A stretch of 26,199 bases of DNA from a virus, in IMG/VR virus record IMGVR_UViG_3300017975_000037, positions 1 through 26,199 of that record. One strand, 5' to 3'. The notes beneath the pieces are model-generated. The model was not told the origin of the DNA, ran no database searches, and saw nothing but the letters and a program-made list of their open reading frames with translations. The first letter of the stretch is position 1; every line of letters starts with the position of its first letter. This document shows positions 3,620-23,814 of the stretch, piece after piece. The position numbers were made by a program, and so were the translations under genes.

Positions 3620-4492
3620 CTAAAGCGTGCGCTCGATCGAGCTGCTCGAGACGCGCGAGGAGCCGTAAGCACTGCGCTGGGCCGGCGGAGGAGCGACAAG
3701 ACGGACGACATGGAGCAAGCGCTCGGGCTTGAAGGGCTTGGCCATGCAGACGACCGCACCAAGCTGATGGCTCGCGGAATAGTCGGCGGGCTGAGCCGAG
3801 CGCGTGAGCAGAATCACGGGCACGCGCTGCAGGCGATCATTGCGCTTGATGATGAGACAGAGATCGTGGCCGGACATGTCCTCGGCTTCAACTTCGGCGA
3901 GGAAGGCAGCGGGAGTCGTGGTGCGCAGGACTTCGAGAGCCTGCTGCGCAGTGGGAACAATGACGACGGTGTAACCGTCATTCTGTAGAATGGCGCGCAT
4001 AGTATCGGCGATGCGCTGATCGGGTTCGACCGCGAGGACAATGGACTGCTGTTTCAAAGTCGAGGCGGATTCCGAGTTGGCGCCGCAGACGTAGGGGTCG
4101 GAGGAGGCGGCTTTCTTTTCGCTCTTGGCCTCGGCCTTGGCGGATAGAAATTGAATGGCAATGGCGAACTGGCCGTCATCGGATTTGGTGACGCGCACGA
4201 TTTCGGCGGGCTGAGCCTGATTGAGGGCCGCAGCGGCGCTGGAGTAGGGGAAGGTGACGTCCAGCCGGAGACCCTTCCAGTAGCCGGCGCGGGCGCTCAT
4301 GAAGAGCAGGCCGTCGCGTGAGACGTCCACGCTCTTGCAAATTTCCTCAATCGGGTCGGGGGAGTTCGCAGCCTTGATGTGAACCTGGGCAGAGATTTTC
4401 GCACGCTTGCGGCGGCGGCGTTCCACTCCATTGTGTCCAGGTCCAGCGGATTTAACGGGTGCTTCTGCGGAGTCAACAGTCATCGTGCTCAT
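3620..4492 (-). CDS. PilZ domain plus degenerate receiver (REC) domain protein
   Basis: This 290-residue protein joins two bacterial signalling domains. Residues about 22-118 match PilZ, the c-di-GMP binding fold: an Arg cluster ERRRRKR (24-30) and the D-x-S-x-x-G motif DVSRDG (56-61). Residues about 150-268 match a response-regulator receiver: IVLAVEPD (first strand), LLTRS with Thr230, and the conserved Lys252 in AKPFKPERLL. The phospho-acceptor Asp is replaced by Glu200 (LAEVEAEDMSG), and the acidic pair of the Mg site reads Glu156-Pro157, so it is probably a pseudo-receiver locked in one state. No DNA-binding or output domain follows; the tail is Ser-rich. It is encoded against the phage genes, between portal and scaffold, and diverges from the scaffold gene across a 220-base gap. 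The ATG at 4492 has AGGTGTGGG just upstream. It is probably a moron gene or a host-derived insertion. Confidence 0.85.
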   Translation of the reverse strand: MSTMTVDSAEAPVKSAGPGHNGVERRRRKRAKISAQVHIKAANSPDPIEEICKSVDVSRDGLLFMSARAGYWKGLRLDVTFPYSSAAAALNQAQPAEIVRVTKSDDGQFAIAIQFLSAKAEAKSEKKAASSDPYVCGANSESASTLKQQSIVLAVEPDQRIADTMRAILQNDGYTVVIVPTAQQALEVLRTTTPAAFLAEVEAEDMSGHDLCLIIKRNDRLQRVPVILLTRSAQPADYSASHQLGAVVCMAKPFKPERLLHVVRLVAPPPAQRSAYGSSRVSSSSIERTL

Positions 4493-7415: not shown

Positions 7416-8690
7416 ATGGCACAAATGCAAAACGCGCAATCGGTTGCGTTGCAACTAGAGAAGGTGAGGGACAAGCTCCCCTTGCTCTATGAGCGGGACG
7501 ACATCCTGCTGACGATGATCCAGCAACGCGGCGACGTGGAACGCGTCAGCTCGCGGAACATGCGCCTGCCGTTGCAAATTCGTCCGGGAGGCAAGGCGGG
7601 CCTGGCGAACATGGACGGCGGGGACCTGGGACGCGGGTCTGGAACAACCTACGACGTGGCGCAAGTGACGCCGGTATTTTTCACCAACGCGGTGGAAATC
7701 ACCAAGTTGGTGGAGTATGCGTCGAATGCGCCCGAGAAGGCGATCGAGAATGCGGCGAAGCGAGAAGTGAAGAACGCGATGGCGCAATTCCGGTCGTTTC
7801 TCGACAAGGTGATGCAGACGAACGGAAACGGGGTGCTCGGGACAGTCAGCTCGATCACCACGACTGGGTTGCCGAGCGGAGTGGCAGCACAGTTCGGAAT
7901 GGCGAAGCCGCCCGGGGCGTCGCTCGTGTATTTCAACCAGACGATTCAGGTGTACGACCCAACGTTGACGACGAACCGGGGCTCGGCGAACATCCTGCTG
8001 GTGGATCCGTTCAACGCTTTCATCCAGGTGGATTCGCTGCCGACGGGAACGAGCGTTAACGATTTGATCGTGCATAACGGGTTGACGGGAGCGCAGCCGG
8101 TGTCGCTTTTTGGAATCTTGTATCACCAGACGAACGCGACGACCGGGACGTGGCTGAACCTAAACCGCGCGACTTATCCGGTGGAATTGGCGACGCCGAA
8201 CGTGAACGGAAACAACTCGACGCTGACACCGGGAGCGGTGCGACTGGCGATTAACAAGGTGAGAAAATCGTTGGGGTCGAACCAGGTGTCGAAGCTGATT
8301 GCGTACACCTCGGTCGAGCAGGAGCATCAGTGGGAGCAGCTTGGGGTCACGATTTCGCAGATTATCAAAGAAGGCGCAGGCGGGCGCGCCAGCGATCTCG
8401 ATTTGCTCTTCACGGGCGAAAAGACGATGGCTGGGGTTCCAATCAAGTCGAGCATCAACGCGAATTCCACGCGGGTGGATTTTCTCGATCTTTCGCACTG
8501 GGGACGCGCGGTGATGCAGGACATTGATTTCTACGATGTCGGGGGACAGACGGTGTTTCCGATTTACGGAGCGAGCGGCGGGCTGGCTTCGGCATATATC
8601 TTTTACTTCGTGACGGGATTCCAGGTATGGAACGAATCGCCACGCAGCGGGGCGTATATCAACAACCTGGCAATACCGACGGGGTACTGA
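7416..8690 (+). CDS. Phage major capsid protein
   Basis: This 424-residue protein is the likely coat subunit. Its length, position after scaffold, and layout fit: a helical N-terminus (ALQLEKVRDKLPLLYERDD), a block VSSRNMRLPLQIRPGGKAGL, a strand/long-helix pair with AVEITKLVEYASNAPEKAIE, and a C-terminal strand-rich part with IDFYDVGGQTVFPIYGASGG. These features are typical of HK97-fold coat proteins, but I assign no subfamily. There is no visible protease domain and no long N-terminal delta domain. The ATG at 7416 is preceded by AAGGGAG about 13 bases upstream, a longer spacing than usual. The gene is richer in GC than the two genes before it. Confidence 0.8.
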   Translation: MAQMQNAQSVALQLEKVRDKLPLLYERDDILLTMIQQRGDVERVSSRNMRLPLQIRPGGKAGLANMDGGDLGRGSGTTYDVAQVTPVFFTNAVEITKLVEYASNAPEKAIENAAKREVKNAMAQFRSFLDKVMQTNGNGVLGTVSSITTTGLPSGVAAQFGMAKPPGASLVYFNQTIQVYDPTLTTNRGSANILLVDPFNAFIQVDSLPTGTSVNDLIVHNGLTGAQPVSLFGILYHQTNATTGTWLNLNRATYPVELATPNVNGNNSTLTPGAVRLAINKVRKSLGSNQVSKLIAYTSVEQEHQWEQLGVTISQIIKEGAGGRASDLDLLFTGEKTMAGVPIKSSINANSTRVDFLDLSHWGRAVMQDIDFYDVGGQTVFPIYGASGGLASAYIFYFVTGFQVWNESPRSGAYINNLAIPTGY

Positions 8691-16439: not shown

Positions 16440-18467
16440 TCATTGGACTACGAGTTGTAGAGGAAATCCCCGCGCTGCATTGAGCGACGTGCCGGCGGCA
16501 TTTTGCACGGTTGCCTGAATGAGGAAGTTCGTCGTGCCGGCGGGTGTGCCGATGGTTGCACGCTTCCCATGACCGCCGCAGCCGCCGATCAGTCCGGCAA
16601 TTCCTAAACACAGGACAGCAAGTGATCCCAAGCGGATCTGTTGCGCGCGGGGGGATACAGCCGCGCGCGCGATCATAAAAACTGCCAAGGCGGCCAATGG
16701 AAAAGCAGCGAGGAGCGGCAAGCAGCCTGAAGGAGAAACCTTGTCTCCGAGGGATCCAGGGATTGACCCGAGATCGCCTGTGACACGAGATGTGGTTTGG
16801 ATTGTGAGCGTGAAGGGGACAGTGGTGTCGGGCATGGCCGTGACAGACGGAGGAGAGAACGTTGGCACCGTGAGTGCCGGCAAATCAGTGGGTGGGGCAA
16901 CGGGCCCGATAGGGCTTGCAATAGGCGGAGCCACAAACGTGATTGTGTAAGGGGAGTTCGCGGGAAAATTCCCATCGGTCGTGAGTTGGAGATTATAGGT
17001 GGCGGTCGTGCCTGCAACTGCGGTGACGGACATATTTTGAGTGCCTGCAAGAGCGATGGAGAAATCGGCGCCGACACCTGTCAGGGCCGCGGTGAGGTTT
17101 GTGCCGGCGGTGTACGAGACCATGAGTTGGGCTGAACGTGCCGCTGTAGCGCGGGGTTCAAATACGACGTTAATGGTGCAACTGGAATTTGCAGGAAGGG
17201 TGGTGGTGCAGGAAGTCGCCTGGGCTTGAAAGTCGGACGGATTTGCTCCCTGGAAGCTGTTGACGACAAGACTTGTGAGCTCAGCGCTGGTCCCGTTAGT
17301 GAGTGTGAATGGCGCGGGAGGAGAAATACCGCCGGTGGGTTCGACGCCGAAATCGTTCGAGGAAGGCGACAGAGTGACCGTGTTCAACGGTTGGCCTAAG
17401 TTCTGATACTGCACGATGCGATTGCGGCCCTGATCTGCGACGAATAGATCGCCCGCCGTGTCGAAAGCAATTTCGCCGGGAGATGAAAGCTGAGTGGCGA
17501 CGACGGAAATTCTTGCGGTAGTGGAATCGTAACGAAGAAGTTCATTGGCTGCTGCGTCGGCAACGAAGAGATTGCCCCCGCCGTCGGTCGCCAGGCCTGC
17601 GGCACAAATTCCAGCAGAATTCACGCCACTCGCTTGCGCGCTGATACAGGATGAAGAGCGGCCTACAAAGCCGGTGACGGCTATTATGGCGCGTGTCTGG
17701 GCGTCGATAGAGAAGACAGTTCCTGTTTCAGGGGAAGCCACAAAGACCCTACGGGCGTCCGGGGTGACGGAAATGCTCGCTGGTTGCGCTACGTGCGCGA
17801 GCAATTCTGCAGGACCGGGAAGCTCAGAAGTGGCGGCATGCAAGACCAGGACAGCGTTTGCGCCGTGGTCCGCGACGTAGAGGTTTCCCGCGTGATCAAG
17901 AGCGATTCCCATAGGTTCGATGAGTTCAATTAACTGGTGCGGTGCCCAGTGTCCGAGAATGCTGCGAATCACACCGGACTCACTGCTGGATGATCCTGCG
18001 ACGCGTCGGATGGTGGAATTGCCACTATCAGCGATGAATATGGTCGCGTCGGAAGCGACGGCCACGCCGCTGCGCATGAGCAGAGAATCCAGTTTCAAAT
18101 CGAGTTGAGCAGAGGTTGCGGGGCCACCATCGCCAAGCGAGCCAGCCTGGGCGACGCCGGCAACAAGCATAAGATTTGGAGCTGCGACTATCGGAGCGCC
18201 GGCGGGCGAAATGAGAGCGACGGGATCAAATGCGAACAGGCGGTTCGGGCTATCGAAAACCGTGAGGTAGACCGGGGAATTCACGGACTGGTCAGCGGCC
18301 GGTCGGGACTGGGCAAGTCCAAGCGAACGGACCGGCAGATTGTTCGCGATAACTAGGGGGGCTGTGGTTGCGCCGCCGGAGGGTTCATTCGCGCCGGGGG
18401 GCAGGGAACGTGCCACCACTGCCGAAGCAATCACCCCCAAAGCGCAGAAGACCACCGGTCGTCGCAA
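16440..18467 (-). CDS. Exported NHL-repeat protein with Ig-like domain and C-terminal membrane segments
   Basis: This 675-residue protein is host-style cargo. A signal peptide covers about 1-20 (VVFCALGVIASAVVA). Residues about 100-360 are NHL-type beta-propeller repeats, each with a strand pair such as ATIFIADSGNSTIRRV, GNLYVADHGANAVLVL and GDLFVADQGRNRIVQY. Residues about 365-470 are a choice-of-anchor/HYDIN-like Ig domain (FTLTNGTSAELTSLVV, CTINVVFEPRATAA). Residues 470-575 are another Ig-like stretch, and two hydrophobic segments lie at about 583-601 and 613-632, the second ending in a lipobox-like LIGGCGG, before a 40-residue tail. The start is TTG 18467, chosen because GGAGAG lies five bases upstream; no ATG gives the signal peptide. 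It is encoded against the virion genes, between the adaptor and the small virion protein, and is probably an acquired host gene. Function unknown; surface binding is plausible. Confidence 0.75.
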   Translation of the reverse strand: MRRPVVFCALGVIASAVVARSLPPGANEPSGGATTAPLVIANNLPVRSLGLAQSRPAADQSVNSPVYLTVFDSPNRLFAFDPVALISPAGAPIVAAPNLMLVAGVAQAGSLGDGGPATSAQLDLKLDSLLMRSGVAVASDATIFIADSGNSTIRRVAGSSSSESGVIRSILGHWAPHQLIELIEPMGIALDHAGNLYVADHGANAVLVLHAATSELPGPAELLAHVAQPASISVTPDARRVFVASPETGTVFSIDAQTRAIIAVTGFVGRSSSCISAQASGVNSAGICAAGLATDGGGNLFVADAAANELLRYDSTTARISVVATQLSSPGEIAFDTAGDLFVADQGRNRIVQYQNLGQPLNTVTLSPSSNDFGVEPTGGISPPAPFTLTNGTSAELTSLVVNSFQGANPSDFQAQATSCTTTLPANSSCTINVVFEPRATAARSAQLMVSYTAGTNLTAALTGVGADFSIALAGTQNMSVTAVAGTTATYNLQLTTDGNFPANSPYTITFVAPPIASPIGPVAPPTDLPALTVPTFSPPSVTAMPDTTVPFTLTIQTTSRVTGDLGSIPGSLGDKVSPSGCLPLLAAFPLAALAVFMIARAAVSPRAQQIRLGSLAVLCLGIAGLIGGCGGHGKRATIGTPAGTTNFLIQATVQNAAGTSLNAARGFPLQLVVQ

Positions 18468-18626: not shown

Positions 18627-18980
18627 ATGGCACTCACATTTACGCTTGTGGACACGTGGGACGATGGCAGACGAATCCACGTCTCCGGCACGGTCGCCGC
18701 GTCAGGAAACTATACGACCGGTGGCGACACGCTCGATCTCTCGCAGGTTCCGATCATCGCCTCGACACAGCCCCCCATCACCGGGACCTCGTGGATGGAT
18801 GGGCTCTCTGGCTACGACTATGTATTTTACCCGGGCACGGCGATGAATTCGAACAAAGTGAAAATATTTCAACAGGGATCCACCTCCGGTGCGTTTCCAG
18901 AACTCGCCGCGGGAGCGTACCCCGGGGGAATTGCCGCCGACACAATCACTTTTTACGGAATATTCCCGAAATTGCAGTAG
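18627..18980 (+). CDS. Small beta-rich phage protein, possibly virion
   Basis: This 117-residue protein is all beta in texture: repeated short strands (LTFTLVDTWDDGRRIHVSGT, YDYVFYPGT, TITFYGIFPKL) with Gly/Thr/Ser turns and no membrane segment or charged coil. It is probably a small structural protein such as a decoration or fibre-associated subunit, but I do not recognise a family. It starts the rightward operon: ATG 18627 has GGAGGA upstream, and the next gene begins 12 bases after its stop. Two hairpins precede its ribosome site. Confidence 0.65.
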   Translation: MALTFTLVDTWDDGRRIHVSGTVAASGNYTTGGDTLDLSQVPIIASTQPPITGTSWMDGLSGYDYVFYPGTAMNSNKVKIFQQGSTSGAFPELAAGAYPGGIAADTITFYGIFPKLQ

Positions 18981-18992
18981 GGCCTGTGCCAG

Positions 18993-21377
18993 ATGAGCAT
19001 TGAAACTTTCACGCCTCTCCCGCTAACGACGTTCGGCTCCTGGGTAACGCTGCTCGACCCGTCGGACGTGCCGCCAGGAATGTCGCCCAGCCTTGCCGAC
19101 GTGGAGTTCTTCCCAGGCGGAGTGCGCACACGGCCCGGTCTCGTTTCCCAGTTTCCGCTGATGCCAGGCACCCCGAACATCAATGGCCTGAAAACCTACG
19201 GGACGACGAATCTCGTCCAGCGACTGCTGGTCCTCGACTCGCTCGGCAATCTTTACAAGGAAGGCTCTCCCGGTGTTCTCTCGAATATCGCTGCAGGAAT
19301 CCGGCCGAGTCTCTACTTTGCCTCGACGACACAATTTGGCCGTGAGTACATGGCCTTTTCGGATGGGCTCGTCGGGCAGGATTTGCCGCGACAATACGAC
19401 GACACGTACTTTGATCGTGTGAGCCAGGTGGGGCCCGGCGAGGGTCCCTCGGTTGCCGACGCCGCCGATCCAGGCAGCATTTCACCAGGCGTGCATCAGT
19501 GCGCGGTCGTTTTCGCGACGAGGCAAGGCTACTGGACAGTTCCTTCTCCGCCGATTGGCTGGACGGCGGTTGGCTCAAAGAAAGTCAATATCACAAACAT
19601 TCCCACCGGGCCATCGAATATTGTTCAGCGCCTGCTAACGTTCACCGCGGCGGGTGGTGCCAGTTTCTATCACGTGCCGGCGACGATGGTGATCAATGAC
19701 AATACCACCACGTCGCTCGAAGTGGATTTCTCCGACACAATCCTGCTCAGCGGCGTCAGCATGGATTACCTATTCGGCCAAATCGAGCTGCCCAATCAAG
19801 TCGGTGTAGTGGACTATGCCGAGCGGATTTTCTGGTGGGGCGAACGGTCGAAAATGCCGAACTGGCGTAATCCCACCTTCGACGGTGGCTGGGACGCATC
19901 GGGCAACGGGCGCCCCCTCGGGTGGCAGTTAGATCCCGTAAACGGAGCCGGCGGAAGCCGCGAATCCGTCGACGTAATTTGGGGTGATGCCTACCGGATC
20001 ACGGCGGACGGTGTGACAATTGTCCGTGGCGAGATTTCGCAGAACGCCATCACGGACGCAACGGGGAATCCATTGTTTCTGAACAACACGGATTATTCCG
20101 TGCGCGCTCGCATAAAGCGCAGCTCGAATTTGTCGGCGGGAACCCTGCGCATCAATGCCTACAGCCCTTCTATGGGTCTTATCGGTACGGGTTTGGCCAT
20201 CACACCCGTTCAGGCAACCACGGCATATCAGGAATTCACGGCCGACCTCTTTCCGCCCCAGACTTCACTGCCCTCAGATCTCATGCTGCGAGTTTATGCG
20301 GACGGGCTGCCGGCACCCAGCGGGGAGTCTTTCCTGGTGGACAACATCGAAGTCTTTGCAACCAATGCGGCCCAGAACGCCTCGCTCGTGCGCGCTTCCG
20401 CCACGGAGGCTCCGGAAAGCTACGACGGTGTGAGTGGCATCATGGAAATCGCTGTAAATAACGGGCAGGGAATTCGCTGCGCGTTCAAGCTGCGCAACAA
20501 CCTCTACTTCGTGAAAGAGCGCAGCATGTACGTCACGGCGACGGACGGGGTTAATGAGCCGGCGCTTTGGGCGGTTGAAGAGGTCTCGAATAAAGTCGGC
20601 ACACCCTCCGCGCATGGTGTTGGCATCGGTGAGGAGTGGGTCGTGATCGCGGGCCGCTCGGGCCTCTACTTATTCGACGGCAGTGAGCCCATCAAGCTTT
20701 CGCAAGAGATCCAGCCCACGTGGGACACCATCAACTGGCAGTCCGGCCAAGTTCTATGGGTGCAAGTGGACACGCAGCATAAGCGAATCCTCACCGGTGT
20801 CCCGATGGGGAGTGCCACGCAACCGAATCAGATCCTCATGCTCGACTATACGGAAGGATTCCAGGACCCGCTTGTCTCCATGTTCACGACGCCGGAGCGC
20901 GCGCGGAAATGGGCGCAGTGGATGATCCCGGCAAATTCGTGCGGCCTCATTGAACGGCCGACAGGCGTCGCGCAGATCTTTCTCGGAACGAACAATGGCA
21001 GCACAAAAATCTATGCGCTGACGGAAGGTCAGTACTCGGATGACGGCAATGCGATCAATTCCTTTTACACGACTGCGTATCTTTCGAGCACAGGGATCAG
21101 CGGCCGGAATTTGTTTGGTTACCTCACCGCGTACGTGCAAGGCGCAGGATCGCTGGCGTTGTCTTCCTATTCTCCCGGCGATGCAGTCGAAACATCGCTT
21201 GGTACCTGGACGCTTGCTTCGCCTGCGAGCCGGGACATGGAGCAGTTCACGAACGTGCTGGCCGAGCGCATTTCTTACCAGGTTGGCACGAATGCAGTGG
21301 GCTCTTGGTTCTCAATGACGAAACTCGTGCCCTGGGCCAAGTCGGATCCGTTTGCAATTGTTCGCGGCACAAATTAG
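18993..21377 (+). CDS. Large virion protein, tail-hub/stabilisation-like beta-propeller with inserted carbohydrate-binding-like domain
   Basis: This 794-residue protein is strand-rich. The N-terminus (DPSDVPPGMSPSLADVEFFP, then VRTRPGL) and the C-terminal half (LRNNLYFVKERSMYVTATDG, EEWVVIAGRSGLYLFDG, HKRILTGVPMG) look like blades of a propeller. Such proteins close the portal vertex in short-tailed phages (the P22 gp10 hub group), and the place between adaptor-level and ejection-type genes agrees; this is inference. Residues about 288-455 form a separate jelly-roll-like module (NWRNPTFDGGWDASGNGRPL ... ESFLVDNIEVF) like carbohydrate-binding modules, so the protein may also touch the cell surface. 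ATG 18993 is 12 bases after the upstream stop. It could instead be a surface-fibre or baseplate-like protein. Confidence 0.65.
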   Translation: MSIETFTPLPLTTFGSWVTLLDPSDVPPGMSPSLADVEFFPGGVRTRPGLVSQFPLMPGTPNINGLKTYGTTNLVQRLLVLDSLGNLYKEGSPGVLSNIAAGIRPSLYFASTTQFGREYMAFSDGLVGQDLPRQYDDTYFDRVSQVGPGEGPSVADAADPGSISPGVHQCAVVFATRQGYWTVPSPPIGWTAVGSKKVNITNIPTGPSNIVQRLLTFTAAGGASFYHVPATMVINDNTTTSLEVDFSDTILLSGVSMDYLFGQIELPNQVGVVDYAERIFWWGERSKMPNWRNPTFDGGWDASGNGRPLGWQLDPVNGAGGSRESVDVIWGDAYRITADGVTIVRGEISQNAITDATGNPLFLNNTDYSVRARIKRSSNLSAGTLRINAYSPSMGLIGTGLAITPVQATTAYQEFTADLFPPQTSLPSDLMLRVYADGLPAPSGESFLVDNIEVFATNAAQNASLVRASATEAPESYDGVSGIMEIAVNNGQGIRCAFKLRNNLYFVKERSMYVTATDGVNEPALWAVEEVSNKVGTPSAHGVGIGEEWVVIAGRSGLYLFDGSEPIKLSQEIQPTWDTINWQSGQVLWVQVDTQHKRILTGVPMGSATQPNQILMLDYTEGFQDPLVSMFTTPERARKWAQWMIPANSCGLIERPTGVAQIFLGTNNGSTKIYALTEGQYSDDGNAINSFYTTAYLSSTGISGRNLFGYLTAYVQGAGSLALSSYSPGDAVETSLGTWTLASPASRDMEQFTNVLAERISYQVGTNAVGSWFSMTKLVPWAKSDPFAIVRGTN

Positions 21378-21418: not shown

Positions 21419-22429
21419 ATGCTGACTGTTCCACAAATTGAAGCGCTGCGGCGCACGAATCCGCAGCTCTATGAAGCGATGAAGCGGCTCGCGCAAGCGT
21501 CGCTAGGCCCGAATCAGGGCTGGAGCCTGGATAGCCAGGTCACCGACGGGACAAATTATGCGCGCATCGTGTCTACAGCTCTGACGGCAGGAAAACTCGA
21601 TCCGACGAGACCGGGGATGCTGATGAAGGGCTCGGTCCCGCCCACCTGGTCGGGCGCGATGACCTACGTCTCAACCACGACGACCATCACCTGGAGGTGG
21701 ACCGGCCTTTCGATATCGCGCGCGGACGGCACGAACACTTCGGTTCCCGATGGATCGCTGGATGTAACCGGCCTGACGCCAGCGACGACGTATTATTTTT
21801 ATCCTTATTGGGATGATGTGGCGCTGGCAATCAACTGGGTGGCAAGCGGCGTCGGCACTCCCCCCAACGCTCAAACCGCAAAAACAAATTCCGCCGCGCA
21901 GCAGCAATCGTTGCAGGGACTTATTCCACTCTCGCAAGGCGCCATAACAGCGGCGACAACGGCTTCCGGCACGGGCGGCGGCTCAGGAGGCGGCAGCGGG
22001 AGCTGCCTGCGTGCTGGCACGATCGTGCTCACTGAAGAGCGAGGCAGCGTTCCGATCGAATCCTGTATCGTCGGAGAACATCTCAGGTGCCCCGGCGCGG
22101 CGGCGGGAAGTGAGGCTTGGACGCGGGTCCTCCAATTACAGGTGCGCGACGCAGACACTTTCATTCGGCTGCATTTCTCAAACGCCGAGACTCTCGACGT
22201 GACGCCGCACCATATCTTCACGCTCGCGGACGGCTCGCCGATGCGCGCCGAGCGGCTTTGCTTGAGCGACATTCTCGTGGGGCGCTTCGGCCGCGTCACG
22301 CTCAAGAAGATCGAGGCCATTGTCGAGAACAGCAAAAAAGTGACGTTGAGCTGCGAGCCAACGCACCAGTTCTTTGCAGGCGGTTTTGCGGCCAGCGTGC
22401 TGACGCACAACTACACGTTCACCTCATGA
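21419..22429 (+). CDS. FN3-like phage protein with C-terminal Hint (intein/BIL-type) domain
   Basis: This 336-residue protein has a helical start (1-35), an FN3-like domain about 75-150 (TTTTITWRWTGLSISR, then LDVTGLTPATTYYFYPYW), a Gln/Ala linker, a Gly/Ser spacer (183-195) and a full Hint domain at 196-331. Hint landmarks: Cys196 opening CLRAGTIVLTEERGSVPIE; block B VTPHHIFTLADG with Thr262-Pro263-His264-His265; and the end block THQFFAGGFAASVLTHN closing on His330-Asn331. Hint domains cut at their own ends through an N-S shift and Asn cyclisation. Only five residues (YTFTS) follow, and the +1 residue is Tyr, which cannot act as splicing nucleophile, so cleavage or transfer is expected rather than splicing. 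It starts 41 bases after the hub-like gene without a strong ribosome site; ATG 21305 inside the upstream gene is in frame but unlikely. The next gene starts 4 bases after its stop. Confidence 0.8.
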   Translation: MLTVPQIEALRRTNPQLYEAMKRLAQASLGPNQGWSLDSQVTDGTNYARIVSTALTAGKLDPTRPGMLMKGSVPPTWSGAMTYVSTTTTITWRWTGLSISRADGTNTSVPDGSLDVTGLTPATTYYFYPYWDDVALAINWVASGVGTPPNAQTAKTNSAAQQQSLQGLIPLSQGAITAATTASGTGGGSGGGSGSCLRAGTIVLTEERGSVPIESCIVGEHLRCPGAAAGSEAWTRVLQLQVRDADTFIRLHFSNAETLDVTPHHIFTLADGSPMRAERLCLSDILVGRFGRVTLKKIEAIVENSKKVTLSCEPTHQFFAGGFAASVLTHNYTFTS

Positions 22430-22433
22430 GCTC

Positions 22434-22766
22434 GTGATGACAGGGCGCCGTTACTACCTCACGACTTATGGCGACTGGCTGCGGCACTCCGCGCGGTTTG
22501 CGAATTCGCACTGGCTGTCCTTGAGCGAGCAGCGGAACGAATCATCGCCAATTCTCGTTCTCATCGAGGCCGACGAAGGCGTGCATCTCGTTTTAGAAGA
22601 TGACAAGGCATTCAAAGCGCTGCCGCACCCGCTCACGCAGAAGCCCATTTCGGAGGCCGCCCAGATCGCACTCGCCGGGCAAGGGATTGCGCAGGGGGCC
22701 ACCACATTTGAAGTTGCAGAGTCGCTAGGCAGCAAACATCCGCTCCTGCGCTATCGCGTATTTTGA
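22434..22766 (+). CDS. Small phage protein of unknown function
   Basis: I do not recognise this 110-residue protein. It begins RRYYLTTYGDWLRHSARFAN, has a beta-type middle (ILVLIEADEGVHLVLEDD), then a mixed tail ending HPLLRYRVF. There is no signal, membrane segment or metal motif. It starts 4 bases after the Hint-domain gene and ends 3 bases before the GNAT-like gene, so the three are translationally coupled. GTG 22434 and ATG 22437 are adjacent in-frame starts. A role as partner or target of the Hint protein is possible from position only. Confidence 0.6.
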   Translation: MMTGRRYYLTTYGDWLRHSARFANSHWLSLSEQRNESSPILVLIEADEGVHLVLEDDKAFKALPHPLTQKPISEAAQIALAGQGIAQGATTFEVAESLGSKHPLLRYRVF

Positions 22767-22769
22767 CCC

Positions 22770-23174
22770 GTGTCCGTCCGCGCCTATACGGAAGCCGACC
22801 TCGATGCGCTGCGGCGCATGCACGAGCAACAGGGGTTCGACTACGCGTTTCCTGACATTGCGGACCCGGTTTTTGTCTCGAAGCTCGCGGTCGTGGACGA
22901 TTCCGGCCAAGCGGTTATGGCCTCGCTCGCGCGCCTGACATGCGAGATTTATTTGCTAGCGGATTCAAAAGCCGGGACACCGCGTGAGCGCTACAAACGG
23001 ATGTTGCAGCTGCACAACGTAGCCGAGCATGACCTGCTCTCGCGTGGTCTCGACGACGCGCATGCCTGGCTGCCGCCGTCCATCGCCAAGCGATTCGGGC
23101 GGCGGCTCGAAGCGCTCGGCTGGGTGCGCGATGATGCTTGGACGCCTTATTGCCGGCGCCTTCGCCTGAAGTGA
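22770..23174 (+). CDS. GNAT-like acetyltransferase, reduced
   Basis: This 134-residue protein has the outline of a GNAT N-acetyltransferase: the opening SVRAYTEADLDALRRMHEQQ, a strand with LAVVDDSGQAVMASLARL, and the closing helix-strand RRLEALGWVRDDAWTPYCRR. The usual acetyl-CoA loop (Q/R-x-x-G-x-G/A) is not evident where it should be, near 70-85, and the middle helix carries RERYKRMLQLHNVAEHDLLS instead, so activity is doubtful. GNAT proteins use acetyl-CoA to modify amines. It starts with GTG three bases after the preceding stop. Substrate unknown; modification of a phage or host protein is possible. Confidence 0.6.
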   Translation: MSVRAYTEADLDALRRMHEQQGFDYAFPDIADPVFVSKLAVVDDSGQAVMASLARLTCEIYLLADSKAGTPRERYKRMLQLHNVAEHDLLSRGLDDAHAWLPPSIAKRFGRRLEALGWVRDDAWTPYCRRLRLK

Positions 23175-23259
23175 AGCCGGTGTAAATTCCGACATCGGGA
23201 TAAGGAATCACTTCATTTCAATTCTTCGAATTCGAGTTTCTCTTCTCTCGGGGGGACCT

Positions 23260-23814
23260 ATGTCTCGTGGAGCGCAACACACGACCCGTCAACTGGCCGA
23301 CCAACAATTGCAACAACAGAACCAACTCATTTCGCAGGCGAATCAGCAAGGCCTCCAAGACCGCTCATTACTCATGCCCTCGATCCAGAGTCTCTTGACC
23401 AGTCCCGGCTATACTCCGGCGCAGCAATCGGACATCACGCAGCAAAGCATGGGCGCCACTAACACCGCCTTCGATGCGCTGCGTGAGCGCGCCGCCAATC
23501 GCGCCGCCGCTACCAACGACACGGCCGGCTTTGCCGACTTGACCGCACAACTCGGCCGCGAGCAGGCACAGGCCCTCGCGAACCAGGCGCAGCAGAACCA
23601 AATCGCGTTCGCCAATCAACAATACAAGGAGCAGCTCGCCGGGTTGAATGCGCTAGGGCAAACTTACGGGATTGACACAAATTTGCTTGGCCACGCCATG
23701 GGCGTTCCGGCGCAGTTGCTCGGCGTCCGTCAGCGCGCGTCCGGGGGATCCTCAACTGGCGGGATGGGTGGCCTTTTCGGAGTGGGCTCCGGCATCGCTT
23801 CGCTTTTCGGATAG
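23260..23814 (+). CDS. Gln/Ala-rich protein, ejection-type candidate
   Basis: This 184-residue protein is strongly Gln-, Ala- and Asn-rich and mostly helical (QLADQQLQQQNQLISQANQQ; GREQAQALANQAQQNQIAFA), with a Gly-rich amphipathic end (GGMGGLFGVGSGIASLFG) that could insert in a membrane. Podovirus ejection proteins that are injected with DNA have similar helical Gln/Ala-rich bodies, and the position after the tail genes and before lysis genes agrees. No enzymatic domain is seen. ATG 23260 has a G-rich run (GGGGGG) five bases upstream. The call is by composition. Confidence 0.5.
   Translation: MSRGAQHTTRQLADQQLQQQNQLISQANQQGLQDRSLLMPSIQSLLTSPGYTPAQQSDITQQSMGATNTAFDALRERAANRAAATNDTAGFADLTAQLGREQAQALANQAQQNQIAFANQQYKEQLAGLNALGQTYGIDTNLLGHAMGVPAQLLGVRQRASGGSSTGGMGGLFGVGSGIASLFG

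Follow-up and report, generated by a model that had tools for sequence, protein, structure and literature searches.

The window, by which we mean the whole stretch of DNA analyzed (a 26.2 kb virus record), encodes a 336-aa protein that ends in a Hint domain, and the evidence supports placing this domain with A-type bacterial intein-like (BIL) domains rather than with inteins. The best explanation, and in our judgment a likely one, is that an autoprocessing A-type BIL Hint has become fixed to the end of a fiber- or adhesin-like phage protein. Autoprocessing is predicted because the domain has the Hint fold, is of the BIL type, keeps the class 1 catalytic residues, and is followed by no +1 nucleophile. 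As the usual splicing is impossible without that nucleophile, the protein probably cuts itself or hands its front part to another molecule. The features on which this reading depends are collected in Table 1.

Table 1. Positions of the parts of the Hint-bearing gene, and of the major head protein gene, in the window
Feature	Position	Strand	Basis or remark
Whole gene, 336 aa: front part, Gly/Ser linker, Hint domain, 5-residue tail	21419-22429	+	
N-terminal helical part, residues 1-56	21419-21586	+	AF2 helices 4-13, 15-29, 44-56 (low confidence)
Beta-rich fiber-type domain, residues 76-141	21644-21841	+	AF2 strands 76-141 (pLDDT about 65-74)
Linker: PLSQGAI motif (residues 170-176) and Gly/Ser spacer to Ser195	21926-22003	+	
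Hint domain, Cys196 to Asn331 (C-terminal 136 residues)	22004-22411	+	Profile, predicted structure, conservation
Cys196 (Cys1), N-terminal nucleophile	22004-22006	+	Invariant in 21/21
Block B TPHH, Thr262 to His265	22202-22213	+	Invariant in 21/21
His330-Asn331, Asn-cyclization pair	22406-22411	+	Invariant in 21/21
Tail YTFTS, five residues; +1 is Tyr, not Cys/Ser/Thr	22412-22426	+	Followed by TGA
Major head protein	7416-8690		PHROG 14242 match

Fold and class of the C-terminal domain

Taken alone, the protein gives nothing above the cut-off in single-sequence scans against Pfam (including its Hint families), NCBIfam, and PHROG; the nearest approach is a subthreshold match to TIGR01445 (intein_Nterm; E 0.19) that starts at residue 196. 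Profiles were therefore needed. The profile search proposed in the sequence-only reading gave Hint/intein matches at the level of the family (TIGR01445 matches 12 of 16 members, best E 0.0016), whereas PF07591, which that reading had named, matches one member of 16 (E 0.026). When a 16-member Hint profile was run against all PDB chain sequences, there was one credible match, to the Clostridium thermocellum A-type BIL (2LWY, “bacterial intein-like domain”; E 0.006); the alignment is co-linear and spans positions 4-134 of 140. On the NrdA inteins of Caulobacter phages the same profile scores 28.8 bits, compared with 6.5 bits for the best of 2,400 shuffles.

Structure prediction led to the same place. 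The AF2 model of the domain (27-row Hint alignment; pLDDT 72.5) is essentially all-beta, although it is poor for the last 17 residues, which include His-Asn and the tail (pLDDT below 50). In a Foldseek search, 2LWY ranks first (E 4.6e-9, TM 0.78/0.84), followed by Tetrahymena BIL2, gp41-1, class 3 DnaB inteins, and Hedgehog, and the best 50 of 57 PDB matches at E ≤ 0.001 are all Hint-superfamily structures. Profiles and predicted structure together put the assignment well above chance, and the claim of a complete C-terminal Hint domain holds. Its limits, read from the letters as Cys196 to His330-Asn331, prove exact on translation of 21419-22429, in which Cys196, TPHH (262-265), His330-Asn331, YTFTS, and TGA are all in place. 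The gene starts with ATG, and the start Met is invariant in 16 aligned members.

A-type BILs are defined by a C-terminal His-Asn, which B-type BILs lack (PMC7765530), and BILs are without a +1 nucleophile and mostly give cleaved products (PMC7664689). In addition to the Hint fold, we found Cys1, the block B TxxH, and the terminal His-Asn in 21 of 21 intact proteins, and in all of them +1 is Tyr rather than Cys, Ser, or Thr. Thus, the BIL-type reading is supported, as is the missing +1 nucleophile on which it turned. The domain shares all of these properties with 2LWY, but the two are only about 24% identical. A-type BILs are also placed in variable regions of nonconserved bacterial proteins, whereas the phage Hint stands at the extreme C-terminus of a conserved phage protein; this mismatch concerns distribution and leaves the domain itself unaffected.

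The second-best fold match, BIL2 of Tetrahymena BUBL (PDB 6Y75, 6TMM), is an isopeptide-forming BIL. In both systems the N-flank ends in a flexible, Gly-containing stretch; however, BIL2 is flanked on both sides by ubiquitin-like domains and has RGG before Cys1, where the phage family has GSGS or GSGN (residue -1 is Ser or Asn). The closest sequence relatives in named phages are the class 1 inteins in the ribonucleotide reductase of Caulobacter phages CcrColossus and CcrPW (32% identity over 91 aa), which share a DVTPxH block and a Cys..EP..H block before the end. These inteins differ in having a C-extein with Cys at +1, a long middle part, and a penultimate Gly where the phage Hint has His. 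They too have a Cys shortly before the EP..H block (cf. Cys281 and Cys312 of the window Hint, both invariant in 21/21). With the Hedgehog Hog domain the phage Hint has in common the fold family (PDB 1at0, E 5.2e-6) and, as predicted here, an N-flank that is released or transferred with nothing spliced, but it lacks the sterol-recognition region, keeps His-Asn, and has Ser or Asn at -1.

Other classes were considered and set aside. A class 1 intein would have a +1 nucleophile and a C-extein, and here YTFTS is followed by the stop; nor is the domain sporadic with empty alleles (see below). Class 3 inteins lack Cys1 and have a WCT motif with Cys at F:4, whereas Cys1 is present here, Cys312 is not at F:4, and block B has no Trp (manual alignment by eye). 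Hog membership is contradicted by the missing sterol-recognition region and by the mere five residues after the Hint, and a polymorphic-toxin PT-HINT (PF07591) by the lack of a downstream toxin domain, only the pentapeptide being present, as well as by the single member matched.

Relatives, conservation, and selection

The gene is present in five IMG/VR contigs (72%-76% identical) and twelve Acidobacteriota genomes. A profile of the front part only found it in 17 of 95 genomes of one Acidobacteriota order, five of which had been missed by the Hint search; in a phylum-wide sample of 396 Acidobacteriota genomes, only the seed genome was found. From its presence in these genomes we infer that the host of this uncultured soil phage belongs to the Acidobacteriota. 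Hint sequence is present in all 17 gene-bearing genomes, and none has a Hint-free copy; the copy is intact in 15, has an in-frame stop in L036, and is decayed in L038. The Hint thus belongs permanently to the protein and is under selection, unlike a mobile intein of sporadic occurrence.

Among the 21 intact proteins aligned, viral and from Acidobacteriota genomes, the Hint differs by up to 45%. Nevertheless, Cys196, TPHH, Cys281, Cys312, Thr329, His330, and Asn331 are invariant, as are, around the ends of the Hint, Ser-3, Gly-2, Tyr+1, Phe+3, and Ser+5; the block F His316 is kept in 20. pN/pS is 0.235 for the Hint, 0.157 for the linker, and 0.12 for the tail, values to be read with the caveat that synonymous sites are close to saturated. 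The Hint and its five-residue tail are under purifying selection, and front and Hint distances correlate across the 21 proteins (r 0.86, Mantel p 0.0002). The idea that self-processing might serve as a variation mechanism finds no support, the domain being fixed, conserved, and co-evolving with the front. A link to Mtd or a diversity-generating element, which consisted of one subthreshold Pfam match (mtd_2nd, E 0.075), was dropped. In one relative (L028, 3842-4702), an in-frame deletion has taken out the PLSQG motif together with most of the linker, yet GGSGS-Cys1 and the Hint are intact.

Front part, second Hint lineage, and genomic setting

The front part had been described as FN3-like, a label that we could not confirm: there is no Pfam FN3 match, and the low-confidence AF2 model of the full-length protein (built with six close relatives; pLDDT 39) has no fold match. 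That model suggests a beta-rich domain. Stretches homologous to residues 76-141, with similar PLSxGxI motifs and Gly-rich linkers, are present in L006, L023, and L025. In L082-L084 (about 4001-4372), a 37% identical front domain and Gly-rich linker are followed by fiber-like repeats in place of the Hint; by this comparison, the Hint behaves as an exchangeable C-terminal module.

A second set of Hint domains has the same layout and is related to the window lineage only at the level of Hint motifs. hhalign between the two is not significant (E 0.11), and the matches of a second-lineage profile that includes the linker to the window family (E down to 5.8e-13) are inflated by Gly-rich composition. 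These Hints form the C-terminus of a Phage-tail_3 tail protein with a window-type front domain at 42% identity (L006), of long proteins containing the front domain at 43%-45% (L023 and L025, in which we read a LamG-like part, with no profile match), of a PHROG tail protein (L021), of a PHROG virion structural protein (L045), and of repeat proteins (L042 and L046); a bacterial genome (L095) encodes a further protein with the layout. A Gly-rich linker precedes Cys1 in most cases (not in L021 and L042), and 4-6 residues follow His-Asn in most (L021 runs further). Cys1, TxxH, and His-Asn recur. The +1 residue is Y, F, L, K, V, G, A, or N, never Cys, Ser, or Thr, which alone is weak evidence because the lineages in this set are few. 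The two phage tblastn matches to the second lineage that were opened were rejected, as neither is a structural protein: one is an intein in a DNA-polymerase-like protein, and the other a short frame with an intein-like beginning at a Cys. Tandem Hints also occur. On a 463-kb contig (IMGVR_UViG_3300033405_000001; L042, 6001-6720), two C-terminal Hints are joined HN-KAAV-C, and a protein of an Acidobacteriota genome (L099, 90-2159) has at least three, separated by HNKGG(G)C and followed by a Ser/Gly-rich stretch and then a likely membrane helix.

The protein at 21419-22429 is a putative virion protein. The structural setting proposed for it gains indirect support from the other C-terminal Hints, whose carrier proteins have matches in tail or virion families. 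The window also encodes a 1587-aa pectate-lyase-like protein and an SLT transglycosylase, and has a weak spanin match. The order of the neighbors (18627-21377 and 22434-23814) is kept in most relatives whose contigs extend there; named phages gave no match to the 794-aa gene upstream. A gene that lies among the structural genes but on the other strand (16440-18467, minus) encodes a 675-aa NHL-repeat protein with an Ig-like part; it is kept at 30%-44% identity in most relatives and looks like a cargo gene. Two relatives (L030, 8430-11264; L031, 8424-10832) have 2.4-2.8 kb of metabolic-type genes directly 3′ of the Hint gene that are absent from the window; by eye, both include a dienelactone-hydrolase-like gene, L030 a carboxymuconolactone-decarboxylase-like gene, and L031 a short-chain dehydrogenase.

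Predicted processing and its rivals

In Hint chemistry, Cys1 forms a thioester with the N-flank, which the +1 nucleophile then takes over; without that nucleophile, cleavage dominates (PMC7664689, PMC4031507). In Tetrahymena, BIL2 passes its N-flank on to lysines, with formation of an isopeptide bond (PMC8616854). Because of this established chemistry and the BIL2 precedent, we favor an N-S acyl shift resolved by hydrolysis or an outside nucleophile. Cys196 would attack the Ser195-Cys196 peptide bond, and the front part, which ends in a flexible Gly/Ser arm, would then be bound to it as a thioester. Since +1 offers no side chain for the takeover, water, or an amine or thiol from a different molecule, would resolve the thioester, and cyclization of Asn331 would free the pentapeptide YTFTS. 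What results would be the front domain ending in a Gly-rich stretch; it would either come away from the Hint or become attached to an acceptor on the virion or cell. The invariant His-Asn and tail suggest that the C-terminal side matters, whether via Asn cyclization or via a tail that completes the fold. This counts against plain hydrolysis, which alone would not need a well-kept Asn and tail; against BIL2-like conjugation counts the RGG end, which the phage Hint, with Ser or Asn at -1, does not share. It is conceivable, if rather doubtful, that the front domain is covalently docked in this way, via the Hint thioester on its Gly-rich arm, to an amine or thiol of virion or host, free of enzyme and ATP, and that phages have put more than one Hint lineage to this use.

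The main rival, which we consider unlikely, is splicing free of side chains: Asn331 would cyclize first, and the freed amino group of YTFTS would attack the Cys196 thioester, giving a product that ends ...GSGS-YTFTS with the Hint excised. The invariant, strongly selected Tyr+1, Phe+3, and Ser+5 fit a tail retained in the product, and there is a reported precedent for BIL ligation without nucleophilic side chains (Aranko 2013, as cited in PMC7664689 and PMC4031507). However, cleavage products are reported to predominate for BILs (PMC7664689), and tail conservation could reflect only completion of the Hint fold. Less probable still is a catalytically silent Hint, kept as a structural cap or binding tip. 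Such a plain tip role is conceivable given that the homologous front in L082-L084 bears fiber-like sequence in the Hint's place, but a silent fold should lose some of Cys1, the block B Thr and His, and the terminal His and Asn, all invariant in 21/21, and Cys1, TxxH, and His-Asn recur in the other lineage on structural proteins. That the domain is an ordinary intein, or a decayed one left by a mobile element after loss of endonuclease and C-extein, is very hard to credit despite the resemblance to the Caulobacter-phage NrdA inteins (28.8 bits), given a C-extein of at most five residues, no endonuclease, no +1 nucleophile, no Hint-free gene copy in the 17 genomes, co-divergence of front and Hint, and purifying selection.

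The chemistry and the domain type are already known. We could not find a precedent for phage structural-type proteins that end in a conserved domain of the self-processing type, and this setting seems new: the open-access literature searched contained no description of Hint domains regularly used on phage tail or structural proteins. Such proteins do exist unremarked, since UniProt holds “Fibronectin type III” proteins of uncultured Caudovirales (A0A6J5NYB8, A0A6J5MFV5) that are of similar size and, compared by annotation only, have the same Hint fold.

When a Hint domain turns up in a phage, it is generally taken for a selfish intein in an enzyme of replication or packaging. The ones described here, which belong to at least two Hint lineages, form a fixed C-terminus on tail- or fiber-type proteins, and the residues that are kept point to shedding or covalent transfer. 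If active, they would give phages a novel route to the maturation or attachment of surface proteins, and they would be a reservoir of natural Hint domains that evolution has adapted to N-terminal release or conjugation.
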